Virus record (IMG/VR): IMGVR_UViG_3300032326_000080
Location: 1-48,135 of that record
Length of the DNA: 48,135 nucleotides
Source: a virus
Strand: one strand, 5' to 3'
This document shows positions 1 to 44,630 of the stretch, in pieces. The translations under genes and the position numbers were made by a program. Under the pieces are notes generated by a model, which saw nothing but the letters and a program-made list of their open reading frames with translations, made no database searches and was not told where the DNA came from. The first letter of the stretch is position 1, and each line of letters starts with the position of its first letter.

Positions 1-2
1 CA

Positions 3-1127
3 CAAAGATCTTTAGCAAACAACTCAGCAGTTTATAACGCTAAACCAAACACTGCACAATTTTTACGTGAATGGAGAAATCTTTACGAATCAAAATCTGG
101 AGAAAGAGGAATTTACAATATTGATTCAGTTCGTAAACACGTTGATTCATTTGGGCGTAGAGACTCAAGCAAGATATCAGGAACAAATCCTTGTGGAGAA
201 ATTTTACTAAGATCAAATGAATTTTGTAATTTAACAGAAGTTGTTATTTCTGCAGATGATACTGAAAAAGAATTACTAGAAAAGATTAGACTTGCTACAA
301 TTCTAGGAACTTGGCAGTCTACTTTAACTAACTTTAAATATCTTCGTAAGACATGGAAAGATAATTGTGAAGAAGAAAGACTACTAGGGGTATCTTTAAC
401 GGGTATATATGGAAATAAATTAACTTCTACCGCTGGAGATAAATTAAAAGAATTACTTATTAAACTAAGAGAACACTCAGTTGAATCTAATAAATTAGAA
501 GCAGAAAAAATAGGAATTAATCAATCCGTTTCTATTACCTGCGTTAAACCATCTGGAACAGTAAGTCAGTTAACTGGTGTGTCAAGTGGAATTCATCCAT
601 GGTATTCAGAATATTACATTAGAAGTGTGCGTGGAGATAACAAAGATCCATTAACTCAATTCCTAAAAGACTCTGGAGTTCCTTACGAAGCAGATGTTAT
701 GAAGCCAGATCAAACAACAGTATTTTATTTTCCACAAAAGGCTCCAAAAAATGCCACTATTACAAAAGATTTAACAGCAATAGATCATTTAGAAATGTGG
801 AAAATTTATAGAACATACTGGACAGAGCATAATCCAAGCGTAACAGTTAATGTCCACGAGGATGAATGGATGAGAGTTGGAGCATGGGTATTTGATAACT
901 TTGATTCAATTGGTGGGGTATCATTTTTACCATCTTCAGAGCACTCATACAAGCAAGCACCATATCAAGAAATTACAAAAGAAGAATATGAAGAGGCAGT
1001 AAAGAAAATGCCAGAATCAATTCGTTGGGATATGATGACTATTTACGAAACAGAAGATGGAACAACTGGTAGCCAAGAATTGTCTTGTGTTGCTGGAGTT
1101 TGCGAAATAGTTGATATTTCAAAATAG
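3..1127 (+). CDS. nrdJ: Class II (adenosylcobalamin-dependent) ribonucleotide reductase, 3' part
   Basis: This reduces ribonucleotides to deoxyribonucleotides for phage DNA synthesis in the host cytoplasm. The reading frame is open from base 3, so the 5' part lies outside the window; the GTG at 579 is internal and not a start. Seen: an NPCGEI motif near nt 190 (the active-site cysteine region), CVKPSGTVSQLTG near nt 540 (phosphate-binding loop), and a C-terminal SCVAGVC pair of cysteines that would re-reduce the active site. In the RNR family, this single-chain layout with a C-terminal CxxxxC matches the monomeric NrdJ type rather than NrdA or NrdE. Phages often carry an RNR to raise dNTP pools. 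It ends 31 bases before the next gene, with a promoter-like site between. Class II is favoured, but the B12-binding part is not visible. Confidence 0.85.
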   Translation, partial: QRSLANNSAVYNAKPNTAQFLREWRNLYESKSGERGIYNIDSVRKHVDSFGRRDSSKISGTNPCGEILLRSNEFCNLTEVVISADDTEKELLEKIRLATILGTWQSTLTNFKYLRKTWKDNCEEERLLGVSLTGIYGNKLTSTAGDKLKELLIKLREHSVESNKLEAEKIGINQSVSITCVKPSGTVSQLTGVSSGIHPWYSEYYIRSVRGDNKDPLTQFLKDSGVPYEADVMKPDQTTVFYFPQKAPKNATITKDLTAIDHLEMWKIYRTYWTEHNPSVTVNVHEDEWMRVGAWVFDNFDSIGGVSFLPSSEHSYKQAPYQEITKEEYEEAVKKMPESIRWDMMTIYETEDGTTGSQELSCVAGVCEIVDISK

Positions 1128-1134
1128 CCTTTTG

Positions 1135-1143
1135 TGCTAAAAT
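1135..1143 (+). promoter_or_regulatory. Extended -10 promoter TGCTAAAAT
   Basis: TG-C-TAAAAT lies 15 nt upstream of the ATG at 1159. Transcription would start near 1150, leaving a leader of about 9 nt containing AGGT. No -35 sits at 16-18 nt spacing (TTGATA at 1111 is 21 nt away). The same 13-base string TGCTAAAATAGAT recurs at 33095 before the large ssDNA-binding protein gene. Confidence 0.5.
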
Positions 1144-1158
1144 AGATTAGAGGTATAC

Positions 1159-4100
1159 ATGTCTAATCAAGTCTCAAATCTTTATGCCGCAAGAATATTT
1201 GCAGAGCACCCTCTTGCATTATGGGCCTTAGATGATGACTTTTCTTTTATATCAAAATTAAGCATACAAGATAAAAGCATTATTAATTGGGATCTAAGTA
1301 ACATAACTTCTGCCTCAGCATCAAATCCAGTAGGCTTAATACTTGAAAATGAGCAAACAGATGTATTAACTGTAATTTCTGCATCGTCTGGATATCAAGG
1401 ATCGGCATCGGGTACAGCAATAAATTCTATTACAGACTTAGATCCTAATAAAAAGACATTATCTATAAATGCTTTTGCTTATAACTATAACAACGTATCT
1501 AGTTTTGATATAGGGTTTATACATAGTGGTTCTACTTTTTTTACTTCCTATACCCCAGAAAGAGAAGAGGTATGGACAAAGATAAGTCATACCCTAAATA
1601 TTCCTACAGGCAATGTTAATATATATCCATATTTTAAAGTTAAATATGATAATACTTCACTAGGAAATTCTGGACCTGATTATAACTTTTCTATAAATGC
1701 TTTATCGGTTGGTCAATGGTCTGAACTATTTCACTATCAAAGCACTGGAACCCTATCAGCAAGCATAGACCCAAATATATTAAGCATCATATCTGCTTCA
1801 TCTTCTTTGTCAGCCTCAGCAATAACTGGGGTAGTAGCAGACTCTTATGGAATAGCAGAATCTAAAAATGGTTACTACATAGTTGAAAACAATAGATTAC
1901 TTTCTTATAGCGATAACTTCCCTATTACTTTCGGTGCTACAAATATAACTAATATTGCACACCCTCTTTATGGAGAAATACCTTCTATGGTTTTTCCAGC
2001 AGAAGGATTTTTAAATGAGTCTGGCAGATATAAAGAAACTACTTTAGAGTTTTGGCTAAGGGCACATACCAACGTATCAAGTCCAATAAGAATATTTGGA
2101 CCACTAACAACAACTGACGGTATTTATGTAGAAAAAGATTTTATAACAATTAAGATAGGACCATATAGAAAATCATACTTTATAGGTAAATGGTATAGAC
2201 CTATGCTACTAGACTTTAGATATAACATAGATACTGCTTCATTATTAATCAATGGAGATTTAGTTATTGATATGGACATAGATCAAAATAAATTTACATT
2301 GGCAGATAAAGATTATAACTATGTAGGAGTTTATGGAAATGAAAATGTATACCCATTTGAGATAGACGCTATTGCTATTTATCCATACGTAGTTCCAGAG
2401 CAAATTGCAAAGAAAAGATTTGTTTACGCTCAAGGAGTTGAGTCAGCAAATAACATTGTGTCTAATTTTAAAGGAGACTCTTTCCAGGTAGACTTCCCTT
2501 ACGCTAAATATACCTCTACTATAAACTACCCAGACATGAACGATTGGAACTCAGGATTCTTTAACAACTCTAACAGTACATCTAAATATCTTACAAATCC
2601 AGAATACTCTCTTCCACAAATTATTTTTAGTGAAGAGGTAGACTTAGATAATTTCTTAATAGATAACTATAATATACAAGGATCTGACTATCCATTTATC
2701 AAATTAAAGCCTAATGCAAATTATGACAACATAGTTTCAAGTATTAATTTTAATAGTTTGAATGTTTTGAGTACCCCAGTTAAAAGTATATTCGGGGTAT
2801 TTAGAGCACCATCTACTCTGACTGCTACCAAAGAAGTATTAATGTACTTCTCTAATAACTTCAACAATAACAACTTTTCAGTTAAAACAAGTAATGCAGG
2901 AGTAGAGTACTTCTATAACGATACTAAGATATTTGATCACGCTATTATAGAAGATACGATATTTATTGCTGGTTTTGATTTAGACACTATATCTCAAGAA
3001 TACTCAAGTACTTTAAATAACTTTTTTTCTAACCCTCAAAATATATCTTTTAGTTTGGGTGGAAATCAATCATCTATGTTTAGTGGAAAGATATTTAACT
3101 TTACATTCAACAATAGAATGTTTACAGATAAAGACCTTACTAGTTATGTAGATAGCAGTGGATTTTTTGACCCAGACGTTGAGCCAGACAATCTTATAGA
3201 CTACATTGGAAACTACACCTTCTCCCCACAAGTATTATCAGACAGTCTTATTATAGACGTTGCAAGTTCTGGGTACTGGGAAGACTCCATACCACTTTCT
3301 TACTTTGGAAAATTTGTAGAAGATAAAAATAAAAATCCATACTACGACTTAGACCTAATGCAGTTTAACGTAGAGGCACCATCACCTTTAATTTTACAAA
3401 AAGATCAGTACTACGTTCTTGACGGTGGACTGTCTACAACTTTAGACTTTGATTTATACTTTGACAGCGGCACACCAACCACATCTGCCTCCAGCGTTGT
3501 CCTATCCTTTGATGGAGGGACCCCCGCTACAGTTCTATTTATTGAGTACTTAACAGAAGAAGAATTAGACATAGCCTATGGATCATTCTCAAAAGATGAC
3601 TATACAATAAAGACATATATAACATTACAAAATTATACAGATGTAGGAAATATTCCTTATACAGAGTATTCTAATACTATAAGAATAGGTGCAGATAGAG
3701 TATTAGATTTAGATGAATATACTACTACCCAAATAAATAATACTAAGTTTGAAGTAACAGATAGAACAGTAATATTCCCACCAAAAGAGTTAGTAAACTT
3801 TGCAGATTATTATATAACTATACATTTAGAAATTCAAACAAAGGGTATAAATAGAAGTCCTATTAAAATTAAAAAAATGTCTATATCATCCCTTGCATAT
3901 GACGAATCATCTTTTTATTCCATTAATAGCCCTGACGGATATAAACTATTTCCATTTAATAGATATGGAGATATATATGCCTATAAACTAAAAAACCCTT
4001 TTACTATATATAAAGATTCTACTTCTTATATGTATAATACTGGAGACTCTGGTATCAGCGTTCTACCATACGAGAGTACTGCGACTAGAGGTATTACTAT

Positions 4101-4767
4101 TCCAATTAATCAACAGTTAGCAACAGAGTACTTGCTTGGAGGTGTTCAGTTTTGGAGTTTTTACAACAAGGGTGAAACAATAGAAGAAACGGTACAGGTA
4201 GGAAAGATTTCTACTAGAGATAGATCTTATGATATTAAATTAGTTCCAGAGTCAAATTATACTAGGGCTAAGATGGTTCTTTTTGACGAAGACACTAATA
4301 ATGAAGCAACTGGTATAGTTTTTTATCAAAACGGTAATATTGTAGACAATCCATATATTCAACCTTTATCTTGGAATACAATAATAATTACTTTTGAAGA
4401 GTCTATAGATTTGCCAAGTTCTGTAGGGCAGTTAGAAATATACGAAGGATTAATGGTTAATAATATTGCATTTTACAAAAAGTCTTCAGACGTTCTTGGT
4501 TCTATATTCATCGATAACGAGTGGAGAGACTTAAGAGCAGACACCACATGGGGATCATGGTATGAGTCTGGTGCTGGAACCTGGGAAGAAATAGAAGGAC
4601 AAAGCGAACCTTTGACATTTATTGTTGATGGAAAATCAATTTATGATTCTACTTTTGGAGTTTCTAGTGTAGTTGGAAGAGATAATTCAACCTTATCTAT
4701 TAATTCTGACGGCATAACAATAATTACTGGAACAATTTGGGAAGAGTATAGCGGAAGACCTGTATAA
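1159..4767 (+). CDS. Large structural protein with lectin/LamG-like region
   Basis: A 1202-residue protein of unknown exact role, probably a virion component. It is rich in Ser, Thr, Asn, Tyr and Asp and has few Cys, typical of beta-rich phage surface proteins. Residues about 290-420 read like a LamG/concanavalin-A type jelly roll: EFWLRA, then a GKWYRPML-type strand, SLLINGDLVIDMD, and a final strand containing DAIAIYP. Weaker repeats of that pattern follow to about residue 680 and again near the C terminus. No signal peptide or membrane segment is visible. It sits between nrdJ and the portal block and has its own -10 box. Such folds in phages usually bind glycans or decorate the particle. 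It could be a tail fibre, a head decoration or a minor tail protein; the position before the head genes does not settle which. Confidence 0.55.
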   Translation: MSNQVSNLYAARIFAEHPLALWALDDDFSFISKLSIQDKSIINWDLSNITSASASNPVGLILENEQTDVLTVISASSGYQGSASGTAINSITDLDPNKKTLSINAFAYNYNNVSSFDIGFIHSGSTFFTSYTPEREEVWTKISHTLNIPTGNVNIYPYFKVKYDNTSLGNSGPDYNFSINALSVGQWSELFHYQSTGTLSASIDPNILSIISASSSLSASAITGVVADSYGIAESKNGYYIVENNRLLSYSDNFPITFGATNITNIAHPLYGEIPSMVFPAEGFLNESGRYKETTLEFWLRAHTNVSSPIRIFGPLTTTDGIYVEKDFITIKIGPYRKSYFIGKWYRPMLLDFRYNIDTASLLINGDLVIDMDIDQNKFTLADKDYNYVGVYGNENVYPFEIDAIAIYPYVVPEQIAKKRFVYAQGVESANNIVSNFKGDSFQVDFPYAKYTSTINYPDMNDWNSGFFNNSNSTSKYLTNPEYSLPQIIFSEEVDLDNFLIDNYNIQGSDYPFIKLKPNANYDNIVSSINFNSLNVLSTPVKSIFGVFRAPSTLTATKEVLMYFSNNFNNNNFSVKTSNAGVEYFYNDTKIFDHAIIEDTIFIAGFDLDTISQEYSSTLNNFFSNPQNISFSLGGNQSSMFSGKIFNFTFNNRMFTDKDLTSYVDSSGFFDPDVEPDNLIDYIGNYTFSPQVLSDSLIIDVASSGYWEDSIPLSYFGKFVEDKNKNPYYDLDLMQFNVEAPSPLILQKDQYYVLDGGLSTTLDFDLYFDSGTPTTSASSVVLSFDGGTPATVLFIEYLTEEELDIAYGSFSKDDYTIKTYITLQNYTDVGNIPYTEYSNTIRIGADRVLDLDEYTTTQINNTKFEVTDRTVIFPPKELVNFADYYITIHLEIQTKGINRSPIKIKKMSISSLAYDESSFYSINSPDGYKLFPFNRYGDIYAYKLKNPFTIYKDSTSYMYNTGDSGISVLPYESTATRGITIPINQQLATEYLLGGVQFWSFYNKGETIEETVQVGKISTRDRSYDIKLVPESNYTRAKMVLFDEDTNNEATGIVFYQNGNIVDNPYIQPLSWNTIIITFEESIDLPSSVGQLEIYEGLMVNNIAFYKKSSDVLGSIFIDNEWRDLRADTTWGSWYESGAGTWEEIEGQSEPLTFIVDGKSIYDSTFGVSSVVGRDNSTLSINSDGITIITGTIWEEYSGRPV

Positions 4768-4769
4768 TC

Positions 4770-4778
4770 TGATATAAT
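4770..4778 (+). promoter_or_regulatory. Extended -10 promoter, leaderless start at 4785
   Basis: TGATATAAT ends at 4778, exactly 7 nt before the A of the ATG at 4785, so +1 is expected on the start codon. No Shine-Dalgarno precedes the gene and no -35 is seen at 17 nt. A second TATAAT (4763-4768) overlaps the stop of the previous gene. Confidence 0.6.
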
Positions 4779-4784
4779 TGGGTT

Positions 4785-5150
4785 ATGAATAATAATAATA
4801 TTGACAAAAATGGTAAGTCAAAGTTAAAAGTACTTAATAAACAACAAAGATATGGCCTATATGTGTGGCAGATGGATCATAATGGAAAGGCTTTTGGAGA
4901 CAAAGGTGGCAACGTAATGAATATTCCAGGTAATCAGTATGATTTAGATAAGATGAGCAAGGTAGCACAGGCCGCTAGATATTATAATGCCCCAGCAGGA
5001 AAAGTAATTTTTATGCCAGGAGTAAGAAGAGTATCAGATATGGAATACTCTGAACAAATTGGAAGAATGAAAGAAGGATATATTGCCAGCGAAACCGACA
5101 TTGGTGCCTGGATGGATGCTAAAAAAGGGATAAACAAAAATGGAGAATGA
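4785..5150 (+). CDS. Hypothetical protein upstream of portal
   Basis: A 121-residue soluble, basic protein with no recognised domain. The N terminus is Asn/Lys rich; the middle contains GLYVWQMDHNGKAFGD and a GNVMNIPG stretch, followed by predicted helices. There is no ribosome binding site; the ATG is placed 7 nt after a TATAAT box, so it is probably translated from a leaderless mRNA. Its last 11 bases overlap the portal gene, implying coupled expression with head proteins. Its conserved place next to the portal suggests a role in head or packaging functions, but this is guilt by association only. Confidence 0.6.
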   Translation: MNNNNIDKNGKSKLKVLNKQQRYGLYVWQMDHNGKAFGDKGGNVMNIPGNQYDLDKMSKVAQAARYYNAPAGKVIFMPGVRRVSDMEYSEQIGRMKEGYIASETDIGAWMDAKKGINKNGE

Positions 5151-6699
5151 AGAATTAGAATCTATTGCAAGAATAGATAATTTAGATAGAATGGAAAGAC
5201 CAGAAAAAAGCGATGACTTTATGGTCGATGCAGAATTAGCAAAAACATATACAGGACTAGATTCAAATTTTAAACGTAGAGCAACAAGATCAATAAGCAA
5301 GGCATTTACTGGTCAAGAAAATACAGGATCAAAACAGTTATTTCAAGAACAAGACATAGTTACAGCATACGGACTTTATGATGTAGTTGTTCCACCATAC
5401 AATTTAGACGAACTAGCATTCTTCTATGAAAACTCATTTGCTAACCATGCTGCTATAAATGCTAAAGTAGCAAATACTGTTGGCTTAGGATATTCATTTA
5501 TCAACACAGACTCAACTTTAGCAAGACTAGAAGATGCTGAATCAGATGAACAATTGATTAGAGCACAAAGAAAAATCCAAAGACTAAAGGCTCAAATGAC
5601 CGAGTGGCTAGAAGAACTAAACGATGAAGATACCTTTAGCCATATTTTAGAAAAAGTATATATTGATGCTGAATCAACAGGTAATGGATATATAGAAATT
5701 GGTAGAAAGGTTAACGGAGAAATCGGATACGTAGGCCATATTCCATCAACTACAGTGCGTGTAAGAAGATTGCGTGATGGTTATATTCAGATAGTAAATC
5801 AAAGAGTAGTTTATTTTAGAAACTTTCAAGGTAAAGAATCAAACCCAGTAACTAACGATCCTAGACCAAACGAATTAATTCACATTAAAAAATACTCACC
5901 AAAGACTTCTTATTATGGAGTTCCAGACACAGTAGCCTCATCTGTTGCTATGGTTGGAGATAATTTAGCGGGTAGATATAATATTGATTATTTTGAAAAC
6001 AAAGCAGTGCCAAGATATATAGTTACTTTAAAAGGAGCAAAACTATCATCTGATGCAGAAGATAAATTGTTTAGATTCTTACAATCAGGACTTCGTGGTC
6101 AAAATCATAGAACCCTATATATACCACTTCCAGGAGACTCTACAGACAATAAGGTAGACTTTAAAATGGAACCTATTGAAAATGGAATACAAGAAGGATC
6201 ATTTGAAAAGTATCGCAAATCAAACCGTGACGATATCTTAATGGCTCATCAAGTTCCATTCTCTAAAGTAGGAGGAGGCGCTGGAGTTTCAATAGCCTCA
6301 GCAATATCTTCTGATAGAACCTTTAAAGAGCAGGTTGCAAGACCAGCACAAAGAAACCTAGAAAAGGTTATAAACAAAATCATAAAAGAAAAAACCGATA
6401 TGGTTGCTTTTAAACTTAACGAACTAACCCTGACCGATGAGACTACTCAAAGTCAAATTGATGAGCGATACCTAAGAATGCAGGTAGTTGTTCCCAATGA
6501 GGTTCGTGAAAGACTTGGATTCCCATCAAGAGTGGGTGGACAAGAGCCTATCGTCTTAGGTGCTCAACAAAGAGCAGAGATCACATCTCAAGCCGCTGGC
6601 AATAGAATGAGAGACCAACAAAGAACTGATAACAACAGCGATTCTACTTCAACCACTACAGGACGAGGTCCTGGTGGCGAGGGTAGAACGGTAGAATAA
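5140..6699 (+). CDS. Portal protein
   Basis: 519 residues, the usual size for siphovirus portals, which form the dodecameric ring at one head vertex through which DNA is packaged and ejected. Seen: an acidic N terminus, a core starting around residue 85 (VVVPPYNLDELAFFYENS, then a repeat of NAKVAN-type helices), the NELIHIKKYSP segment typical of the PBSX/HK97-like portal family, a long helical stretch (residues about 290-440) with QVPFSKVGGGAG, and a Gly/Ser/Thr-rich tail. It overlaps the previous gene by 11 nt and is followed by the prohead protease, the classical order. The assignment rests on this layout plus family-like motifs. Confidence 0.85.
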   Translation: MENEELESIARIDNLDRMERPEKSDDFMVDAELAKTYTGLDSNFKRRATRSISKAFTGQENTGSKQLFQEQDIVTAYGLYDVVVPPYNLDELAFFYENSFANHAAINAKVANTVGLGYSFINTDSTLARLEDAESDEQLIRAQRKIQRLKAQMTEWLEELNDEDTFSHILEKVYIDAESTGNGYIEIGRKVNGEIGYVGHIPSTTVRVRRLRDGYIQIVNQRVVYFRNFQGKESNPVTNDPRPNELIHIKKYSPKTSYYGVPDTVASSVAMVGDNLAGRYNIDYFENKAVPRYIVTLKGAKLSSDAEDKLFRFLQSGLRGQNHRTLYIPLPGDSTDNKVDFKMEPIENGIQEGSFEKYRKSNRDDILMAHQVPFSKVGGGAGVSIASAISSDRTFKEQVARPAQRNLEKVINKIIKEKTDMVAFKLNELTLTDETTQSQIDERYLRMQVVVPNEVRERLGFPSRVGGQEPIVLGAQQRAEITSQAAGNRMRDQQRTDNNSDSTSTTTGRGPGGEGRTVE

Positions 6700-6739
6700 T
6701 AAATAGTTATAAGTTTTTCAAATCTCTTATAAACACTTA

Positions 6740-6745
6740 TATAAT
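6740..6745 (+). promoter_or_regulatory. -10 promoter before protease-scaffold gene
   Basis: TATAAT ends 10 nt before the ATG at 6755. The predicted leader is only about 3 nt, so the mRNA would be nearly leaderless. There is no clear Shine-Dalgarno or -35. Confidence 0.45.
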
Positions 6746-6754
6746 GGAAGTAGT

Positions 6755-8431
6755 ATGACTAATTTGCATAAAGCATTTTGGCACTCAGAAGATAATTCTA
6801 TCAAGTTATCTATGCCAATCGCTAAAATCGATAAAGAGAAGCGAACCGTTTCTGGGTTTGCCACCCTTGACAATGTTGACAAGCAGTCAGACATTGTCCC
6901 TACTGATGTAAGTATAAAGGCTTTTGAAAGGTTCCGTGGAAATTTACGTGAAATGCACATGCCAGTGGCTGTGGGTAGAGTAATGTCATTTAAGTCAGAT
7001 AAATTTTACGACAAAGAAAAAGATAAATTTTACAATGGAGTGTACGTAGATGCATATATTTCTAAAGGTGCTCAAGATACTTGGGAAAAAGTTCTTGATG
7101 GCACTCTTTCTGGTTTTTCTATTGGTGGCAGCATCAAAGATACGGAAGACCAATACGACCCAGAAATGGATAAATCCATTAGGGTTATTAAAGATTACGA
7201 ACTCCACGAATTATCGCTTGTAGATAATCCTGCAAATCAATTTGCTAATATTGTATCTATTCAAAAAGCAGAAGATGGACAAAATACTTTTGACGGTATA
7301 ATGACAAAAATGTCACTTGAAAATGTATACTGGTCTAAAGAAAATAACATTGTAAGACTATCTAAAGAAGAAGATATTAGATCAGGAGAAACCTTAATAG
7401 GTTTTGTAGAAACAACTGATAATGAAAAAAACGAAGTAATTAAGAATTTAATTAAAGCACATCATGGAACTATGACTAATGAAAATGTTCCTACTAAAAA
7501 TCCTACAACAATTAAACCTAAGAAAAAAAAGAAAGATGAGGAAGAAGATATGGATAAGGCATCAAATGTTAAAGTTGGCGACATGGTTTCATGGAACTCA
7601 AGCGGTGGTACTGCAAGAGGAAAAGTAACTAGGGTCGTTCGCAATGGAAAGATAAAAGTTCCAAATAGTTCTTTTACTATTACAGGAACTCCAGAAGATC
7701 CAGCAGTTGCTATTAGGCTCTACCGTGACGGTAAACCAACTGACACAATTGTAGGACATAAAATGAAAACTCTGAGAAGAGTTACAATGAAATCAGAACA
7801 AGTTTCTGATAATTCTAATAAGGAGGTAAATGATATGGCAAAAACAGAACAAGAAGCAACAGTAGTTGCAGAAGATGTTCAAATTGAAAAAACAGAAGTT
7901 GTAGAAGACGAATTAGTCGTTGTAGACGAAATCGTTAAGTCTGATTCAGATGCTCCAGCAGATGCACCAGCAGAAGCAGTAGCAGAAGATGCTCCAGTAG
8001 AAGAAGTAGTAGCAGCAGTTGCTCCTGCAGAAGATGCTCCAGCAGAAGACGCACCAGCAGATGTTGAAAAAGCCGAAACTCCTGCTGTAGAAAGCAAAGA
8101 TGATGACTTGGCAAAGGCTGTACAAACAGTTAAAGTTTCTGTAGAAGAAATTAGCAAGTCCGTTACCGCAGCAGTTGGAGATTTAGCGGCAACTGTAAAA
8201 TCAATTAATGAACAACTTGCCGAATTAACAAAGAGCGTTGCAAAAGTAACAGAGGAAGTTACAACAGTAAAAAGCAATGTAGAAGAGTTTGGAAAGCGTG
8301 TCGATGCAGTTGAAGATGACACCGCTATCCGTAAGTCTGGCGACCTCGGCGGGGTCGTGCAGGGAAATAAAATAAAAAAAGGATCGATGTGGGGCGGGCG
8401 TTTCCTCAATACCGCTGACCTCTATCGTTAA
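6755..8431 (+). CDS. Prohead protease fused to Tudor-like domain and scaffold
   Basis: A 558-residue three-part protein. Residues 1-175 match the XkdF/HK97-type prohead serine protease: VSGFATLDNVDKQSDIV, then His68 in REMHMPV, Ser119 or Ser122 in LSGFSIGG, and a YELHELSLVDNPAN end motif. The protease trims scaffold and capsid during head maturation. Residues about 268-345 (KVGDMVSW, GKVTRVV, GKIKVP, then a basic end) read like a small KOW/Tudor-type beta barrel. Residues 361-558 are Ala/Pro/Asp/Glu-rich, then a coiled coil with repeated V..SV..I, then a basic Trp/Gly-containing tail, a layout expected of a scaffold. A strong internal ribosome site precedes residue 361 (see nested entry). Major capsid follows after 27 nt. 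Confidence 0.8.
   Translation: MTNLHKAFWHSEDNSIKLSMPIAKIDKEKRTVSGFATLDNVDKQSDIVPTDVSIKAFERFRGNLREMHMPVAVGRVMSFKSDKFYDKEKDKFYNGVYVDAYISKGAQDTWEKVLDGTLSGFSIGGSIKDTEDQYDPEMDKSIRVIKDYELHELSLVDNPANQFANIVSIQKAEDGQNTFDGIMTKMSLENVYWSKENNIVRLSKEEDIRSGETLIGFVETTDNEKNEVIKNLIKAHHGTMTNENVPTKNPTTIKPKKKKKDEEEDMDKASNVKVGDMVSWNSSGGTARGKVTRVVRNGKIKVPNSSFTITGTPEDPAVAIRLYRDGKPTDTIVGHKMKTLRRVTMKSEQVSDNSNKEVNDMAKTEQEATVVAEDVQIEKTEVVEDELVVVDEIVKSDSDAPADAPAEAVAEDAPVEEVVAAVAPAEDAPAEDAPADVEKAETPAVESKDDDLAKAVQTVKVSVEEISKSVTAAVGDLAATVKSINEQLAELTKSVAKVTEEVTTVKSNVEEFGKRVDAVEDDTAIRKSGDLGGVVQGNKIKKGSMWGGRFLNTADLYR
7550..7552 (+). promoter_or_regulatory. Possible second internal start in protease gene
   Basis: An in-frame ATG preceded by GAGGAAG with 5-nt spacing, just before the Tudor-like domain. 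It could yield a Tudor-plus-scaffold product. The purine-rich upstream sequence also simply encodes a Lys/Glu-rich linker, so this may be chance. Confidence 0.2.
7835..8431 (+). CDS. Nested in-frame scaffold protein (internal start)
   Basis: An in-frame ATG at 7835 is preceded by AAGGAGG (7820-7826) with 8-nt spacing, one of the best ribosome sites in the window, yet it lies inside the protease gene. It would give a separate 198-residue product equal to the C-terminal part. The product starts MAKTEQEATVV, continues through acidic Ala/Pro repeats, has a long predicted coiled coil (about residues 85-165) and ends in a short basic tail. These are hallmarks of phage scaffolding proteins, and the arrangement parallels lambda, where scaffold Nu3 is made from an internal start in protease gene C. 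The full-length fusion would be the minor product carrying protease into the prohead, and the nested form the abundant scaffold. The start signal is seen; function is inferred. Confidence 0.7.
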   Translation: MAKTEQEATVVAEDVQIEKTEVVEDELVVVDEIVKSDSDAPADAPAEAVAEDAPVEEVVAAVAPAEDAPAEDAPADVEKAETPAVESKDDDLAKAVQTVKVSVEEISKSVTAAVGDLAATVKSINEQLAELTKSVAKVTEEVTTVKSNVEEFGKRVDAVEDDTAIRKSGDLGGVVQGNKIKKGSMWGGRFLNTADLYR

Positions 8432-8458
8432 ACAAAATTCACTGGGAGGTGAAAAATT

Positions 8459-9451
8459 ATGTCAGAAGAACAAATTTTAGAAAAGGCCGCTGTAACAGGC
8501 GTTATTGCTTCAGGAGGCGTTGGTGGAGTTGCTACTCCAGCATCACAACTTGGACCAGTAGGAACCGCAAAACCATCAGATGGTGGCGGTATCTTAAACG
8601 CAGAACAGTCAGCCCAATTTATCGAATATATTTTCGAGCAACAAGTTCTTGCTCGTGATGGTCGCCGTGTAACAATGCGTGGCAACACAGCAGAACTAGA
8701 GAAGTTAAATGTTGGTGAACGTGTAATTCGCGCTGCTGCACAAGCAGACGCTTCATACACTAACGCTGGAGTTACTTTCACAAAAGTTGAAATCACAACT
8801 AAAAAAGTTAGATTAGACTGGGAAGTATCATCAGAAGCACTTGAAGACAATATCGAAGGCGCAGGATTGGAAGACCACTTGGTCCGTACAATGACTCGTG
8901 CATTCGCTAATGATCTTGAAGACTTAGCAATCAACGGAACAGGTTCAGGAACAAATACATTCCTAAACATCCTTGAAGGCTTCTATGTAAAAGAACAAAC
9001 TGGTAATGACGCTGGTGGTGTATATGGTACAGACGTTGAAGACTTGCAAGCAATTGTGCTAGCAATGCCACGTAAGTATCGTGCATCAAGAGCAGCCATG
9101 AAGTTCTATGCTTCTAGCGAAACAGTAGCCGATATCATTAATGGTCTTGGCTCATCTGGTAACCTACCTTCAGAAAGAATCGTAGAACGCGTTATTGACG
9201 GTGTAGCACCACAAACATTAGGTGCTCCAATCCAATACCGTGTACTAGGTATTCCTTTGGTAGAAGTACCATTGATGCCTGCAGGATTCGTATCTTTGAC
9301 ATTCCCAGAAAATCGTATTTGGGGATTCCAAAGAGACGTTACTGTTCATCGTGAGTTCCAACCTAAGAAAGATACTATTGAATATACTACTTTCTTACGT
9401 TTCGGAGCACAAATCGAAGAAACAGATGCAGTAGCATTTGCAAAAGCCTAA
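8459..9451 (+). CDS. Major capsid protein, HK97 fold
   Basis: 330 residues, preceded by GGGAGGTG at good spacing, consistent with very high expression. Seen: a Gly/Ala-rich N arm (about residues 1-45), then FIEYIFEQQVLARDGRRVTMRGN (start of the E-loop region), EITTKKVRLDWEVSSEALEDN (spine-helix entry), a long helix with RTMTRAFANDLEDLAINGTGSG, and later A-domain segments ending with a TTFLRFGAQIEETDAVAFAKA C terminus. This helix plus NGTG pattern is typical of HK97-type capsids. There is no long N-terminal delta domain, which fits a separate or nested scaffold upstream. Codons look cleaner and slightly more GC-rich than in neighbours, as expected for an abundant product. A hairpin and a new promoter follow. 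Confidence 0.88.
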   Translation: MSEEQILEKAAVTGVIASGGVGGVATPASQLGPVGTAKPSDGGGILNAEQSAQFIEYIFEQQVLARDGRRVTMRGNTAELEKLNVGERVIRAAAQADASYTNAGVTFTKVEITTKKVRLDWEVSSEALEDNIEGAGLEDHLVRTMTRAFANDLEDLAINGTGSGTNTFLNILEGFYVKEQTGNDAGGVYGTDVEDLQAIVLAMPRKYRASRAAMKFYASSETVADIINGLGSSGNLPSERIVERVIDGVAPQTLGAPIQYRVLGIPLVEVPLMPAGFVSLTFPENRIWGFQRDVTVHREFQPKKDTIEYTTFLRFGAQIEETDAVAFAKA

Positions 9452-9470
9452 ATAACATTTAGGATATTAG

Positions 9471-9499
9471 AGGGGGAGACACCAAAAATGTCTCCCCTT
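9471..9499 (+). terminator. Hairpin after major capsid gene
   Basis: GGGGAGACA (9473-9481) pairs perfectly with TGTCTCCCC (9489-9497) around a 7-nt loop; one wobble and one A-T pair extend it to 11 bp. The following bases (TTCAACATTTTAT) are only moderately T-rich, so it may be a partial terminator or an mRNA-stabilising 3' end. Confidence 0.6.
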
Positions 9500-9515
9500 C
9501 AACATTTTATATAAA

Positions 9516-9524
9516 TGATATAAT
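9516..9524 (+). promoter_or_regulatory. Extended -10 promoter TGATATAAT
   Basis: It lies directly after the capsid hairpin. Transcription would start near 9531 and run through the GGAGG ribosome site to the ATG at 9549. This restarts expression of the connector block. Confidence 0.55.
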
Positions 9525-9548
9525 TAGTAAGGAGGATTTTATTTAAAT

Positions 9549-10439
9549 ATGGAAATATTAAATCAAAGACAATATAAAAAAGTTACTTCTCTTACCGCCA
9601 CTTTTACAATTTCTCCAAGTGGAACATACACATTAGATTACGAAGACCTTTACACAGGAGAATCATTTTCAGCATCTGCATCAACAATTTCTGGAGCAGT
9701 ATCATTTACTTTAGCACCAAAATATTTAGACTATACAGGATCACTGGCAGCATCTGTTAAAGACTCAAGTGGCAACACTGTCATCATGACAAACATAGAA
9801 ATTGTTAGACCTTACTGTAACTTAGACTCAGTTGCTTCAGCACTATCAATTACTGACGGTAGTGAAATAGCATATGAAAGATTAGCAAGATATATTATAG
9901 ACTCTCAAACACAAGGTTTTCCATTTGTTAGAAAAGAAAAAGATATTATAGGTATGGGAATGGACTATCTACCTATTGATGAAAAAATTTATAAAATATA
10001 CAAGGTATATAAAAACGAAGAGTTAATATATAATTCAAGTCTTAGTGCTAGTGTAAATCTTGTAACATACGCAATTACTAAAGACGGATCTTCAATTACA
10101 AATGTAGAAAATGAATCTGACGCTGAAAACAAGGTTAATTATAAACCAGTATGGCACGAGCGATATTTGGACCCTGCTTTTGCAGATGGGTCAGAGTATA
10201 GGGTAGATGCCGATTATGGCTGGAAAGTGGTCCCACAGGACATCCAAGAGGCATGTGAGATGCTAGTCCAGGATATTAAGTCAGATAACCTAAAGTACAT
10301 AAATAGATACATAGAGTCATTTGACAATGAAGACTTTAAAATTAAATTTGCTAAAAATCCTACCGCTGGAACAGGAAACATGTTTGTTGATAAAATCTTG
10401 GAGAAATATAGAAATAGGCTCCGTATCGGGGTTTTGTAA
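9549..10439 (+). CDS. Head-tail connector (adaptor) protein
   Basis: 296 residues, preceded by AAGGAGG. The C-terminal third is the informative part: WKVVPQDIQEACEMLVQDI, then NRYIESFDNEDFKIKF, then GNMFVDKILEKYRN. This helical pattern is characteristic of the gp6/gp15-like adaptor family that docks beneath the portal. The N-terminal two thirds are Ser/Thr-rich and beta-like, an unusual long addition for an adaptor, and may form an Ig-like decoration. It starts the connector block, and its stop overlaps the next start as TAATG. Position directly after the major capsid supports the call. Confidence 0.65.
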   Translation: MEILNQRQYKKVTSLTATFTISPSGTYTLDYEDLYTGESFSASASTISGAVSFTLAPKYLDYTGSLAASVKDSSGNTVIMTNIEIVRPYCNLDSVASALSITDGSEIAYERLARYIIDSQTQGFPFVRKEKDIIGMGMDYLPIDEKIYKIYKVYKNEELIYNSSLSASVNLVTYAITKDGSSITNVENESDAENKVNYKPVWHERYLDPAFADGSEYRVDADYGWKVVPQDIQEACEMLVQDIKSDNLKYINRYIESFDNEDFKIKFAKNPTAGTGNMFVDKILEKYRNRLRIGVL

Positions 10440-10912
10440 TGTTTCTTCCATCATCAACATTAGACGATATATTGTTTCCAATGACTGCAGATGTTTATTA
10501 CTCTACCACTCAACAACAAGACTATGGCAATATATCTAAAACTTGGGTATTTGATAGAAAAGTAAACTGCTCAGTAATAAGTGAACTATCTAATAGAGGT
10601 TTTACTGGAGAGTTAAGAACTAAAGGACAAGATTTAATTTATGACTCAAATGCATTTTTTAGAACTAAAGAAGATTTAAGAAAAAAAACTAATGGTTCAT
10701 ATATGCCTATTACAGCAATAGCCATTACTAATATTAAAGACCCTGCAGGAAACGATGTATGGATCAATGGACAAAATCTTTCTAATGCTGCGGGTGCAAT
10801 TAAAACAAAATATGAAATAAAAACTATAGTTCCTACATTTAACTATGATCATACATTAAGACATTTTAGACTATTTATAAGCAAGTCACAAATACAAAAG
10901 TGGGAGCAATAA
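10439..10912 (+). CDS. Head closure (head-tail joining) protein
   Basis: 157 residues. The family resemblance is mainly by position and size: the second small protein after the capsid, following the adaptor and preceding the tail-completion genes, where phages encode the SPP1 gp16/HK97 gp7-like stopper. Seen: MTADVYYSTTQQQDYGNISKTW, matching the common opening of head-closure proteins (a beta strand with a modifiable Tyr/Thr loop), and a short beta-rich body. It is translated by TAATG reinitiation from the adaptor gene. It would seal the head after packaging and join the tail. Confidence 0.55.
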   Translation: MFLPSSTLDDILFPMTADVYYSTTQQQDYGNISKTWVFDRKVNCSVISELSNRGFTGELRTKGQDLIYDSNAFFRTKEDLRKKTNGSYMPITAIAITNIKDPAGNDVWINGQNLSNAAGAIKTKYEIKTIVPTFNYDHTLRHFRLFISKSQIQKWEQ

Positions 10913-11604
10913 TGGCTGCTATAAAGGTTAAATTTAATGGAAAGAATTTTATAGATACCCTCACAAATGTAACAAACTATTCTCAAGGGTTTATTGATGA
11001 AGTAAAAAGAAATCAAAATAAGATAACAGAGAAAATTGCTAGTACCTCTGTAAATGTATTCTATGACTACCTAGATGGACTTGCTAGATCCCATCCAGGG
11101 ATGCTGCACCATGTTTATGAATGGGGTCAGGTAGGAGATCCATTTGCAAGACTATACGAACTTTCTGTATCGCTTCAAGGAAAATCAGCAGTTGTCAGTG
11201 CAGACTTTTTACAGTCTGACACACCTTCTCCAACAAGTAGAGAAGCATTTTACGATAAAGCAAATATTATGGAAGAAGGCATACCGTTAGTTATTGAAGA
11301 AAAAGATGCTCAAGTATTATTTTTTGAAATAGAAGGAGAAGAGTTTTTTAGAAATGGACCTATCTATATTGCAAATCCTGGAGGAGGAGCAACTCGTGGA
11401 TCTTTCGTAAGGGCATATAATGAATTTTATAATATATATTTTACTAAGGACTATTTGAACTCTATTAAATTTTATGATCACTTTAGAGGTTCTAAAGAAT
11501 ATCAAAAGAATGTTAAGATTGCGTCTAAGAGTAAGAATGCTACATCTATAGGTAGAGCAGCAGCACTATCTTGGATTAATAATGCACCAGGAGAAAGAGT
11601 ATGA
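10912..11604 (+). CDS. Neck/tail-completion protein (HK97 gp10-like)
   Basis: 230 residues from the ATG at 10912, which overlaps the preceding stop as TAATG and is backed by GGGAG; an in-frame GTG at 10900 is less likely. Seen: an N-terminal helix region with many Lys/Asn, a HPGMLHHVYEWGQVGDPFARLYEL motif and, near the end, a long helix. HPxxLxHVYEW-like motifs recur in neck proteins of the HK97 gp10/minor tail family in actinobacteriophages. It ends with an ATGA overlap with the next gene. The role as neck or tail-tube completion protein is inferred from order. Confidence 0.5.
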   Translation: MAAIKVKFNGKNFIDTLTNVTNYSQGFIDEVKRNQNKITEKIASTSVNVFYDYLDGLARSHPGMLHHVYEWGQVGDPFARLYELSVSLQGKSAVVSADFLQSDTPSPTSREAFYDKANIMEEGIPLVIEEKDAQVLFFEIEGEEFFRNGPIYIANPGGGATRGSFVRAYNEFYNIYFTKDYLNSIKFYDHFRGSKEYQKNVKIASKSKNATSIGRAAALSWINNAPGERV

Positions 11605-12200
11605 CAGTTTACAGACCAGAGAATATAATCAACAGATATGTTTGGGAACAGTTTAAAACACAGGCCCCAGCCTTTTATAACTTATACCCTCAAACAGTAG
11701 GAGGTAGCGAATTAATTCCATTTTTTCCAGCGGGTGCAGGAAATATTCCTCCTGAAATATTAGATGGAGACTTACCATATATAGTATTTGATAAATTTAC
11801 TAAAGTAAGAACAGGTGCTTATAAATATTTTTATCCTATTAAAAGTGAACAAATGAGATATACCATTTATGGCGGATCACTATATGGAGAAGCAGCCAAC
11901 GGTGGAGATAGATATGGAAACACTATTAATCTTACTTCTTTAATTACCCTTGTATTAGATAGAGAAGATGCTGCAGCAAATGATATAAATGAATTTGCAG
12001 AAGAACTATATGATAATTATCCTGTTTCTGCAAGTGCTTCTGTATATGATTATTATAAATATAGGTTTCAATGTATAAATGTTTTTCAATCGGGGTATGC
12101 AGAAAGTCAACAAGATGTATCTAATTTAATGGAATATAGACCTTCTAGAGATCTTATTATTAAATACGACTATCACTCTAGACAATATAATGAGTCCTAA
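11601..12200 (+). CDS. Tail terminator-like protein
   Basis: 199 residues, starting in an ATGA overlap. The N terminus has a VWEQFKTQAPAFYNLYP helix, then LPYIVFDKFTK, YKYFYPIKSEQMRYTIYG and a late helix with DINEFAEELYD, ending with beta strands. This alpha/beta order (helix, strands with a basic residue cluster, helix, strand) is what tail terminators of the gpU/gp17 kind show, and the gene is the last before the major tail protein, their usual place. These proteins cap the tail tube and dock it to the neck. No motif proves it; the call rests on position and predicted order. Confidence 0.5.
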   Translation: MTVYRPENIINRYVWEQFKTQAPAFYNLYPQTVGGSELIPFFPAGAGNIPPEILDGDLPYIVFDKFTKVRTGAYKYFYPIKSEQMRYTIYGGSLYGEAANGGDRYGNTINLTSLITLVLDREDAAANDINEFAEELYDNYPVSASASVYDYYKYRFQCINVFQSGYAESQQDVSNLMEYRPSRDLIIKYDYHSRQYNES

Positions 12201-12208
12201 AAGCACGA

Positions 12209-12214
12209 TATAAT
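12209..12214 (+). promoter_or_regulatory. -10 promoter for major tail protein
   Basis: TATAAT lies 54 nt before the start at 12268. The predicted 5' leader (about 12221-12267) contains a GAGGAAA/TTTTCC stem around a C-rich loop and then GGAGG. A structured leader fits an abundant mRNA. Confidence 0.45.
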
Positions 12215-12267
12215 AGTATTGAGGAAACAGCCCCACTTTTCCTTATAAAAGGAGGGTGAAAAAATAT

Positions 12268-12942
12268 ATGGCAACTTTAGGTAATAGCAATCAAATTATC
12301 GTAGGTGCAGCACAACTATTCGTTTCTAACGCAGGAGCACTTGAATACTCAAGTGGTTCAGGTTCAGCAGCGGTTTACAACTTTGGTTCAGGATCTGTTT
12401 CAACAGTACCAGCATTCGTGTCTGGAACTAGATATGCAGATACACTAGATGCAAACGCAAACTGGAGAAACGTAGGATACACCATGAACGGTTTGGAATT
12501 ACAATTCCAACCAGACTTTGGTGAAGTTCAAGTAGATCAATTGTTGGACGTAGCAAAACTTTACAAACAAGGTATGCAAGTTAATATGGTTACAGCATTC
12601 GCTGAAGCCACACTTGAAAATCTTCTTGTATCCGTTGCGGGTTCAAATGCAGATCTTACAAACACAGCAACACAAGACGTCTTAGTTATAAACTCAGGCG
12701 AACTTGGTGCAGTTCCAGTAGAACGTGCACTTATTGCAGTTGGTCCAGGCTCTGGAGATCCAGATGCAACAGGAGCAGCAGCAGTAGAAAGAGTTTACGT
12801 AGCAAACCGTGCATTGTCAATCGACAGTGTAACAGTATCTGCAAAACGTGATACTCCATCAATGTTCGAAGTATCTTTCAGATTACTTCCAGCATCAAAC
12901 GGTTCTTACGGTAAAATCGTAGATCGTGTAGTCGGTGCATAA
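12268..12942 (+). CDS. Major tail tube protein
   Basis: 224 residues from the ATG at 12268; the GTG at 12256 sits directly on the GGAGG and is rejected. Seen: MATLGNSNQIIVGAAQLFVS opening, a Gly/Ser-rich loop, NWRNVGYTMNGLELQFQPDFGEVQVDQLLD (the N-loop/strand signature common in actinophage tail tube proteins), then ERVYVANRALSIDS and a FEVSFRLLPASNGSYGKIVDR end. The NVGYT..GLE...P.FGEV.VDQ pattern is widely seen in siphovirus major tail proteins. It has its own promoter, leader and terminator, as expected for a protein made in hundreds of copies. Codon choice is as clean as in the capsid gene. Confidence 0.82.
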   Translation: MATLGNSNQIIVGAAQLFVSNAGALEYSSGSGSAAVYNFGSGSVSTVPAFVSGTRYADTLDANANWRNVGYTMNGLELQFQPDFGEVQVDQLLDVAKLYKQGMQVNMVTAFAEATLENLLVSVAGSNADLTNTATQDVLVINSGELGAVPVERALIAVGPGSGDPDATGAAAVERVYVANRALSIDSVTVSAKRDTPSMFEVSFRLLPASNGSYGKIVDRVVGA

Positions 12943-12967
12943 CCAAAACAACTAAATAAACACATTG

Positions 12968-13004: not shown

Positions 13005-13029
13005 TTAACTATATCCATAGGAGGATTAG

Positions 13030-28985: not shown

Positions 28986-28991
28986 TATAAT
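28983..28991 (+). promoter_or_regulatory. Extended -10 promoter TGATATAAT
   Basis: Its TGA is also the stop codon of the upstream gene. Start near 28998; TAGGAG lies before the ATG at 29007. Confidence 0.5.
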
Positions 28992-29006: not shown

Positions 29007-29429
29007 ATGGCAGCAATACCCTTACCAGAGCGTGGGCAACCACTAGACGTAAACTATATTTATGATATGGTCAGTCAAATTAATTCAATTGCTAACACAA
29101 TTGCTATTAGGGCTACCTCTACATCAAAGGTTAATGAAAATACAGACACTACCAGCAATTTAAAGATGTTTTCAGCAACTAAGACTTTAAGCACAACAAA
29201 CGCATCAGGAAATACAACTGAGTCATTTTTCTTCACATACCCAGAGTTTAAGTTTACCCCAGTAGTAACAGCAACAATTATAAATAATACAGGTTCTACT
29301 ACTGGAGACGATGTAATATGTACATTAAGAAATGTTGGAACATCCAGAGCAGAAGGGGTAGTAAGATTTAATACCTCTGGTGCTGTAAATTTATCAGTAA
29401 GTGTAATAGCAATCGGCATAGCGCCTTAA
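29007..29429 (+). CDS. Small tail/fibre-tip-like protein
   Basis: 140 residues. The N terminus (PLPERGQPLDVNYIYDMVSQINSIANTI) looks like a trimerising helix typical of short fibre proteins, followed by Ser/Thr/Asn-rich beta strands (FFFTYPEFKFTPVVTATIINN, then RVVRF-like strands) without enzymatic motifs. The helix-then-beta-head layout resembles phage receptor-binding tip proteins. It is the last gene of the tail block, with its own promoter. The role is inferred from layout and position. Confidence 0.45.
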   Translation: MAAIPLPERGQPLDVNYIYDMVSQINSIANTIAIRATSTSKVNENTDTTSNLKMFSATKTLSTTNASGNTTESFFFTYPEFKFTPVVTATIINNTGSTTGDDVICTLRNVGTSRAEGVVRFNTSGAVNLSVSVIAIGIAP

Positions 29430-29433
29430 GATA

Positions 29434-29442
29434 TGATATACT
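29434..29442 (+). promoter_or_regulatory. Extended -10 promoter TGATATACT
   Basis: It ends 10 nt before the ATG at 29452; the leader would be about 3 nt, nearly leaderless, with no Shine-Dalgarno. It marks the boundary from tail genes to replication genes. Confidence 0.5.
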
Positions 29443-29451: not shown

Positions 29452-29670
29452 ATGGCAAAAATAATTAACAATAAGCACATTGAGTGCAGCAAGTGTGAAG
29501 GAAGAATGCTAGTAGATAGAGTTTTTTCTTCCTACGATCACTTAGAACTATATTGTTTAGTTTGTGGAAAAAGAGAAATGTATAATCATCCAGATAGACA
29601 TGGAGAAGTTGCTCAGTGGATAATGAAAGCCGAAAAGACCAGAGCCAAGATACTTGGAAGCAATCTATAA
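29452..29670 (+). CDS. Small zinc-ribbon protein
   Basis: 72 residues with two CxxC knuckles: CSKC at about residues 8-11 and CLVC about 20 residues later, the treble/zinc-ribbon spacing, followed by a HPDRHGEVAQWIMKAE helix. Zinc ribbons of this size in phages are often nucleic-acid or protein-interaction modules. It is first in the group leading to DnaB and probably read from a nearly leaderless mRNA. The function is unknown. Confidence 0.65.
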   Translation: MAKIINNKHIECSKCEGRMLVDRVFSSYDHLELYCLVCGKREMYNHPDRHGEVAQWIMKAEKTRAKILGSNL

Positions 29671-31903: not shown

Positions 31904-31909
31904 TATAAT
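31904..31909 (+). promoter_or_regulatory. -10 promoter, leaderless start at 31916
   Basis: TATAAT ends at 31909, exactly 7 nt before the A of the ATG at 31916. No Shine-Dalgarno, TG extension or -35 is seen. Confidence 0.55.
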
Positions 31910-31915: not shown

Positions 31916-32230
31916 ATGACTTACAGCCACAAAAGAATAGAGAAGTTTTCCCTAGAGGGTGAGATCTTTGACGACTCTCATATCTCAAGATTAAAAGATC
32001 AATATATTTTTATGGTCGTTAATGGAATGAGAAATAAAGGCTACGTTCCTAGGTACGACATTGACACAGACTTTACTATAAGTTATAATGGTAAGACATT
32101 TGATTTTAAATTATCGGTTTACGGAGTGCATGTTGGAAAAGGTAAAGCAAAATGTATACTAGGAATAGACAAGAACACAATCGTTCAATCTCTTACTACT
32201 CAGAAAACCAAATCAGAAGAAGTCTTTTAG
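31916..32230 (+). CDS. Hypothetical protein, leaderless, overlapping primase
   Basis: 104 residues, unknown. Mixed alpha/beta with a basic N terminus (HKRIEKFSLEGEIFDDSHISRLKDQY) and a FTISYNGKTFDFKLSVYGVHVGKGKAKCILGI segment with beta hairpins. The ATG is at the predicted +1. Its 3' 79 bases overlap the primase gene in another frame, which is long for a phage overlap; the C-terminal 25 residues may therefore be constrained mainly by the primase frame. Position between helicase and primase suggests a replication-linked accessory. Confidence 0.5.
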   Translation: MTYSHKRIEKFSLEGEIFDDSHISRLKDQYIFMVVNGMRNKGYVPRYDIDTDFTISYNGKTFDFKLSVYGVHVGKGKAKCILGIDKNTIVQSLTTQKTKSEEVF

Positions 32231-43691: not shown

Positions 43692-43700
43692 TGATATAAT
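43692..43700 (+). promoter_or_regulatory. Extended -10 promoter, leaderless start at 43707
   Basis: TGATATAAT ends at 43700, exactly 7 nt before the A of the ATG at 43707; no Shine-Dalgarno or -35. Third case of this spacing. Confidence 0.6.
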
Positions 43701-43706: not shown

Positions 43707-44630
43707 ATGCCTTACGATATTATAAGAAACGGTCCAGGATGCAATGGCGGCTATGCCGTAGTTGGACCATCAGGCGCCATAGGTTGTCACAAAACTAGAA
43801 GTTCTGCTATTAATCAACAACGTGCATTGTATGCAGCAGAAGCAAATAGTAAAAAAGTAGATGAAGTACAAGAGTGGGAAGGAAAGCCACTATACGATGA
43901 ATTGTCAGACGCAGAAAGAATGCTTGCAGATTCATTAATAAAATTAGCACAAGAGGCAGGACCCCTTGATAAAGCAGAAGGAATTTGGGTTGGGTATGTA
44001 GATGGTGCAAATAATGAAAATAATTCTATAGGAGTAAACTGTGGAAACTGTGCATTGCATAAATCATCTGTAGCATGTCTCATATTAGATATGCCAATTG
44101 AAGAAGAGGGTGCTTGCAGATTTGCAGTAATTCCAGATGGTTATGTTACCCAAGGAAACACCTCAGATAATGACATGGATGATATGGAAAGTTCCATGGA
44201 CATGGAAGACGAAATGTCTAAAAGATCTTTAGAAGATTTAGATTTAAGACCAACAGAGTCGATGGCAAATAATGCTCGTAGAGGTTTAGAATTAAGAAGA
44301 AAATTTGGTCGTGGTGGTACTGCAGTTGGAGTTGCTCGTGCTCGTGATCTTATGAATAGAAATAAATTAAGTCCAAGTACAGTACTAAGAATGTATTCTT
44401 TCTTTTCTCGTCATGAAGTAGACAAACAAGGTAAAGATTTTAACAACTCAGAAAGACCATCTAATGGAAAAATTGCATGGCTTCTATGGGGTGGAGATTC
44501 AGGATATGCATGGGCTAAATCAAAAAGAAATGCAATTATGAATATTAGATCACAAAAATCTGACGGTATGTGGATAGATTCTCCATTTAGTTTACAAAAG
44601 TATATTGACAAATCAGACTACGACCTGTAG
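43707..44630 (+). CDS. Protein with Cys cluster and conserved phage C-terminal domain
   Basis: 307 residues. N terminus NGPGCNGGYAVVGPSGAIGCHKTR is followed by a Cys cluster (CGNCALH, then ACLILD and ACRFAVIP, residues about 112-138) resembling a HiPIP/zinc-type fold. The C-terminal domain (residues about 190-285: RPTESMANNARRGLELRRKFGRG, GVARARDLMNRNKLSPSTVLRM, SFFSRHEVDKQGKDF, then IAWLLWGGDSGYAWA) is a widely occurring phage domain often next to portal or terminase. It may be a structural or maturation factor. Read from a probable leaderless mRNA. The function is unknown. Confidence 0.6.
   Translation: MPYDIIRNGPGCNGGYAVVGPSGAIGCHKTRSSAINQQRALYAAEANSKKVDEVQEWEGKPLYDELSDAERMLADSLIKLAQEAGPLDKAEGIWVGYVDGANNENNSIGVNCGNCALHKSSVACLILDMPIEEEGACRFAVIPDGYVTQGNTSDNDMDDMESSMDMEDEMSKRSLEDLDLRPTESMANNARRGLELRRKFGRGGTAVGVARARDLMNRNKLSPSTVLRMYSFFSRHEVDKQGKDFNNSERPSNGKIAWLLWGGDSGYAWAKSKRNAIMNIRSQKSDGMWIDSPFSLQKYIDKSDYDL

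Follow-up and report, generated by a model that had tools for sequence, protein, structure and literature searches.

Probable promoter boxes abutting start codons and predicted leaderless genes in an uncultured phage and its relatives

Does a -10 box that nearly touches a start codon set the beginning of the transcript on that codon, leaving the mRNA without a leader? A preliminary description of an IMG/VR virus record raised this question by placing TATAAT hexamers that end at 4778, 31909 and 43700 ahead of ATGs that begin at 4785, 31916 and 43707. These coordinates are correct, and the difference of 7 amounts to six intervening bases. Throughout, the gap is the number of bases between the -10 box and the start codon, so that a coordinate difference of 7 is a gap of 6. 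The window, that is the whole stretch of DNA analysed, is the record itself (48,135 bases; GC 34%).

The window and its near-start boxes

The proteins encoded in the window include a portal, a protease, a capsid protein, tail proteins, DnaB, a primase, a DnaE-like polymerase, a UvsX-like protein and a terminase. All 45 window ORFs of at least 80 aa, called under a non-overlap rule, lie on the + strand, and the long genes all run in one direction; with the limit at 70 aa and TTG starts allowed, two extra small ORFs appear on the - strand. Among the protein matches listed, the nearest named relatives are Streptomyces phages (51-54% identity for the polymerase, ~52% for the portal). The Streptomyces phages Wakanda and Samisti12 belong to the Stanwilliamsviridae, and the gene order DnaB - small gene - primase, together with the portal and the polymerase, is common to the window and Stanwilliamsviridae phages of Streptomyces. 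Judged by portal and polymerase identity and by gene order, the window looks like a Stanwilliamsviridae-like actinophage, and its host is probably an actinobacterium, since the nearest named phage relatives infect Streptomyces. Positions 1-20000 had no DNA-level match among phage records, and no tRNA genes were found in the window. The ribonucleotide reductase gene at 3-1127 is truncated by the left end of the record; when this fragment was compared with genome contigs, the sole confirmed match (55% identity) was in L198, a 64% GC MAG bearing the title Bifidobacterium breve, which does not settle the host.

The boxes and genes under discussion are the following.

4773..4778, + strand: -10 box TATAAT with TGA just before it (extended -10); gap 6 to the ATG at 4785
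4785..5150, + strand: gene of 121 aa (PHROG 9394), upstream of the portal gene; leaderless start predicted
6740..6745, + strand: -10 box TATAAT; gap 9 to the ATG at 6755; predicted leader of ~3 nt
6755..8431, + strand: head maturation protease gene; near-leaderless start predicted
28986..28991, + strand: -10 box TATAAT ahead of gene 29007, which serves as an SD-led comparator; the gap is 15 and contains AGGAG (28997-29001)
29007..29429, + strand: gene 29007, 140 aa, without PHROG match; orthologs alternate between leaderless and SD-led
29437..29442, + strand: -10 box TATACT with TGA just before it; gap 9 to the ATG at 29452
29452..29670, + strand: gene of 72 aa (PHROG 12850); near-leaderless start predicted
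31904..31909, + strand: -10 box TATAAT within the 20 nt that follow the stop codon of the DnaB helicase gene; gap 6 to the ATG at 31916
31916..32230, + strand: gene of 104 aa (PHROG 17515) with DnaB on one side and the primase, whose ORF it overlaps, on the other; leaderless start predicted
43695..43700, + strand: -10 box TATAAT with TGA just before it (extended -10); gap 6 to the ATG at 43707
43707..44630, + strand: gene of 307 aa (partial PHROG 2859 match), second after the large terminase; leaderless start predicted

None of the five near-box genes of the window (4785, 31916, 43707, 6755 and 29452) has a Shine-Dalgarno (SD)-like motif, versus 29 of the 45 called + strand genes, in agreement with the earlier remark that the three gap-6 genes lack one while most others have it. 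That remark extended to two further boxes, at 6755 and 29452: their placement holds, with 9 intervening bases and a leader of ~3 nt, but the box at 29452 is TATACT and not TATAAT. In the three gap-6 cases the preceding gene stops 17, 20 and 15 nt before the start.

Some further features lie close to these sites. The conserved small gene at 31916-32230 shares 79 bases with the start of the primase ORF (32152-33105); the annotations of Wakanda, Samisti12 and NiceHouse also have an overlap here, and that of Peregrin does not. An extra TATAAT (4763-4768), lying 10 bases ahead of the 4773..4778 box, overlaps the preceding gene's stop codon and recurs in many relatives, perhaps through a conserved protein end. 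The two best terminator-like hairpins of positions 1-20000 (9470-9500 and 12967-12991) each have a TATAAT within ~25 bases downstream, with an SD-led gene after it; the total of such hairpins in this interval was not above shuffles.

The hexamer is frequent at 34% GC, so a bare TATAAT carries little weight and position matters: the window holds 81 copies, 44 on the + strand (28 wholly within called genes, 16 not) and 37 on the - strand. TATAAT stands at gap 6 before 3 of the 45 gene starts, against a mean of 0.052 in dinucleotide shuffles of the upstream regions. Three or more at gap 6 occurred in none of 5000 shuffles, and three or more at any single gap from 0 to 30 in 6 of 5000; when the higher TATAAT rate of the real upstream regions is used, the binomial P for gap 6 alone is 0.002. 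The window by itself is suggestive; the strong evidence comes from the excess among relatives.

Spacing, Shine-Dalgarno exclusion and conservation in related phages

We collected 190 related loci by protein scans with the portal (best 80 of 83), DnaB (best 80 of at least 596) and the gene-43707 protein (30), some loci being pieces of one contig. The start of a gene was taken as the first ATG or GTG of its ORF, the box being ignored in this choice. The gap count excluded ORFs below 70 aa, TTG starts and any start no more than 70 nt from the end of its locus; once genes with 70% or more identity to one already retained had also been dropped, the non-redundant set comprised 786 of 2386 genes. In this set, exact TATAAT was found at gaps 5, 6, 7, 8 and 9 in 14, 34, 5, 3 and 20 genes (76 in total), and at gaps 10, 11, 12 and 13 in 0, 2, 0 and 2 (4 in total). 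At internal in-frame ATGs, used as a control (n=11150), TATAAT at gap 6 occurred 0.0 times per 1000. The reversed hexamer ATTATA was found at gaps 5-9 only twice, versus 76 for TATAAT, and the overlapping hexamer TTATAA showed a smaller excess (15). Ten linkage families lie behind the gap-6 cases and four behind the gap-5 cases, and two account for 19 of the 20 gap-9 cases; these families join some unlike genes, for example gene 43707 with the protease. The preliminary description had let its reading depend in part on the TATAAT-to-ATG distances of relatives, counted with controls, and the near-ATG excess is clear rather than absent. A rigid 7-nt rule is rejected, as the relatives spread over gaps 5-9.

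Presence of an SD separates the same genes. It was found in 4 of the 76 genes at gaps 5-9 (5 of 76 with another SD pattern, the count being pattern-dependent) versus 21 of the 22 genes at gaps 13-19 (Fisher P 2e-16). From the gap counts and this split it follows that a start near TATAAT either abuts the box without an SD or stands at least ~13 bases off with one. A TGn precedes the box in 38 of the 76 gap 5-9 cases versus 287 of the 1911 TATAATs in the redundant loci, read on the strand as given (P 4e-12), and the intergenic space has a median of 18 nt (75 of the 76 predicted leaderless cases). Position statistics, SD exclusion and the conservation described below thus argue for the part of the earlier reading in which a promoter abutting the ATG gives a leaderless start; the fixed spacing of 7 does not survive.

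We then followed individual genes across non-redundant orthologs. A -10 box at gap 5-9 was accepted if it had no more than one mismatch, confined to the three letters in the middle. Hits were dropped if their alignment began beyond residue 25 of the query or their start lay 60 nt or less from the end of the locus, and so were near copies. For gene 31916 the box is present at gap 5-7 in 36 of 40 orthologs and is retained in those of 39-50% protein identity; the four misses are the Streptomyces and the Rhodococcus phages examined, two of each. All four orthologs of gene 43707 keep it, one of them together with an SD-like string. For gene 4785 it lies at gap 6-7 in 15 of 19, two Streptomyces phages among them. 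The four misses (L064, L065, L067 and L073) are counted as such, but each has a TACAAT 7 bases before a later in-frame ATG, so the start choice there may be wrong. The protease gene 6755 has a box in 10 of 11 orthologs (gap 9 in 9 of 11, gap 6 in 1 of 11, Wakanda), with Samisti12 lacking it, and gene 29452 has one at gap 5-9 in only 8 of 20. Comparator genes show next to none: near boxes precede 0/32 orthologs of SSB, 0/9 of MCP, 0/29 of DnaB, 0/17 of the polymerase, 0/28 of UvsX, 0/11 each of genes 9549 and 44664, and 1/7 of the terminase.

The pattern can also be followed outside the AT-rich loci. The stretches of Wakanda and Samisti12 reach 53% and 48% GC, and their gene starts were assigned by other annotators. 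Their gene-4785 orthologs have TACAAT and TATGAT, respectively, at gap 6, and 9 of the 88 genes of both phages together have TANNNT there, versus ~1 expected. Two Rhodococcus phages have TANNNT at gap 6 in 2 of 84 genes (~2 expected) and at gap 5 in 4 (~0 expected), with no exact TATAAT at gaps 5-9. Control stretches of T4 and SPO1 showed no gap-6 excess (TANNNT in 1/48 and 1/45 genes). In a weakly informative sample of genomes from the phylum of the MAG, which are GC-rich and for which the first-start choice is unreliable, TANNNT at gap 6 precedes 5/65 genes in G017 and 3/71 in G040 (~0 expected), 1/68 in G155, 0/57 in G023, 0/62 in G194 and 0/36 in L200-L207. The Bifidobacterium breve-titled MAG (L198) has it in 2/17 genes.

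Gene 29007, SD-led in the window, has both kinds of start among its orthologs. The box stands at gap 5-9 in 27 of its 45 orthologs (4 of these also with an SD-like string), and the remaining 18 of 18 have an SD. Among the 71 loci of the DnaB set with a readable start (L082-L161, window included), the nearest box lies at gap 4-9 in 44, at gap 14-17 in 25 and at gap 10-13 in none, with no box in range in 2. Mapped onto a tree built from 80 DnaB proteins, 62 of them distinct, the start types (leaderless in 38, SD in 27; 6 of the 71 rows left unlabelled for showing both signals) need 7 changes (bootstrap 6-8), 4 of which are forced by starred branches, against a mean of 20.1 for shuffled labels. 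The own tree of gene 29007, with 4 of 45 rows unlabelled for the same reason, needs 10 changes, of which starred branches force only 1; it is too weak to tell whether some of the state changes stem from gene exchange between phages, as they could. We lean slightly towards the view that the promoter evolves together with the start codon as a single module that permits two states, a leaderless or near-leaderless one (gap 4-9, mostly without an SD) and a minimal SD leader at gap 14-17, leaders of ~4-7 nt being avoided. On this view gene 29007 has switched repeatedly, as a short stretch carrying the SD was acquired or lost downstream of a box of the same kind.

Predicted transcription starts and rival explanations

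We hold it to be very probable that the boxes are promoters of the extended -10 type, with transcription beginning on the start codon or 1-3 nt ahead of it, and that they yield leaderless mRNA. What we observe are the position of the boxes, the exclusion of SD and the conservation; what we infer are the transcription start, the polymerase, the translation mode and the host. The boxes would be sigma70/sigmaA-type promoters, often of the extended -10 type (TGnTATAAT) without a recognisable -35, squeezed into short intergenic gaps and acting as internal promoters amid long genes that run one way. No -35 motif was enriched around the boxes relative to offset controls, and scans for consensus -35/-10 pairs were not above shuffles in positions 1-20000 (82 vs a shuffle mean of 77.6) or 28136-48135 (72 vs 89.3). 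Points against the promoter reading are this missing -35 enrichment, the absence of the gene-31916 box from the Streptomyces and Rhodococcus phages, the low share of gene-29452 orthologs with a near box (8 of 20), the gap-6 counts of the Rhodococcus phages, which match expectation, and the origin of nearly all gap-9 cases from two linkage families. The last T of a -10 box usually lies at -7, which makes the A of the ATG +1 at gap 6. Host RNA polymerase would begin on the first base of the start codon or 1-3 nt earlier: a gap of 6 puts the predicted RNA start on the ATG, and gaps of 7-9 put it 1-3 nt upstream; gap-9 starts would not be strictly leaderless, as ~3 nt of leader remain. Because transcription would begin at or 1-3 nt before the start codon, the mRNA would have neither a 5' leader nor an SD, and actinobacterial ribosomes would initiate directly on the 5'-terminal AUG or GUG.

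Chance, to which we give almost no credence, would have it that TATAAT is common at 34% GC and stop-start junctions are AT-rich, so that some boxes fall near an ATG. The window leaves room for this: it has 81 copies on both strands, 16 of the 44 + strand copies lie outside called genes or extend beyond them, and there are only three exact gap-6 cases, at a binomial P of 0.002 under the upstream rate. Yet none of the 5000 shuffles reached three at gap 6, the ATTATA control gave 2 against 76, the gene-31916 box persists at 39-50% protein identity, and the sharp gap-6 peak of the relatives, with gaps 10 and 12 empty, already contradicts it. A/U-rich stretches can aid translation, and the box could instead be an enhancer of this kind on a longer mRNA, Kozak-like or S1-binding, standing in for the SD rather than serving as a promoter. 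Kozak-like sequences are reported in the SD-poor Flavobacterium johnsoniae (PMC6847099). The preference for exact TATAAT over other AT-rich hexamers and the enriched TGn extension both speak against an enhancer, and SD-led orthologs of gene 29007 retain the same kind of box at gap 14-17, where a substitute for the SD would be needless; we consider this reading highly improbable.

It is also conceivable, though we think it unlikely, that translation proceeds mainly from read-through transcripts and is coupled to the upstream gene, with the internal leaderless promoter being minor or conditional. The upstream stops are indeed near (17, 20 and 15 nt in the window cases, a median of 18 nt in 75 of the relatives' 76), and the long window genes all run one way, but coupling leaves unexplained why the SD is absent precisely at boxes with gaps of 5-9. 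If promoters at the start codon are indeed the cause, transcription starts can be predicted from DNA only for a group of uncultured phages, which helps settle start codons there. The gene-29007 series, with leaderless and SD-led versions behind one promoter, offers matched pairs in which the effect of a leaderless start on the timing and level of phage expression can be studied; were the two-state module true, it would be a natural series for testing what a phage gains from leaderless translation.

Comparison with known leaderless systems

The cI gene encodes the lambda repressor. Its mRNA is leaderless (PMC9031893; given as lambda in PMC3160421), so that it shares with the genes predicted here translation of a phage gene from a leaderless mRNA, but cI is a single regulator gene, acting in E. 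coli, whereas several structural and other genes are concerned here. Other parallels come from phages of mycobacteria. In Cluster O mycobacteriophages the predicted SigA promoters PL1, PR2 and PL2 have their +1 on the first base of the start codon (PMC4351075), Adephagia P90 gives a predicted leaderless phage transcript (PMC11373665), and leaderless translation has been proposed for a hidden endonuclease gene in mycobacteriophages (PMC11855218). Our boxes resemble Cluster O in having a phage promoter with its +1 on the start codon, and Adephagia P90 in the leaderless phage transcript. They differ in belonging to other phage families and in being backed by distance statistics and an ortholog series, neither of which appears in the accessible portions of PMC4351075 and PMC11373665. 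In the open-licence literature, preprints excluded and as far as its accessible text goes, we found no treatment of leaderless starts across the Stanwilliamsviridae or their uncultured kin.

According to the available sections of PMC3160421, a TANNNT box ~12 bp upstream of starts marks leaderless genes in Actinobacteria; such TA-led genes average 19.2% of actinobacterial genes and also occur in Deinococcus-Thermus (PMC3160421, PMC12340547), and changes of initiation mode between orthologs have been estimated genome-wide for them. The phage genes are like these in having TANNNT just before the start, no SD, an expected leaderless mRNA and orthologs that change mode, and the near-consensus TATAAT seen here matches what the sections of PMC3160421 and PMC12340547 at hand describe for low-GC genomes; they are unlike them in that a phage lineage is concerned, counted gene by gene across phage orthologs. 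For mycobacteria, the -10 box and the SD are described as mutually exclusive, and a 5'-terminal ATG or GTG is reported to be necessary and sufficient for translation, with seemingly weaker starts at +2 to +5 (PMC4633059). The predicted phage transcripts share the 5'-terminal ATG/GTG and the exclusion between -10 hexamer and SD with the Mycobacterium ones, which were measured by RNA-seq and ribosome profiling (PMC4633059), while those of the window are predicted only. The preliminary description had seen in these boxes a distinct phage design, a view that gives way to the same architecture as already described, in the parts of these papers available, for Actinobacteria and Cluster O mycobacteriophages (PMC3160421, PMC4633059, PMC4351075). 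Already known from actinobacteria and some of their phages, the architecture looks real and conserved in this lineage.
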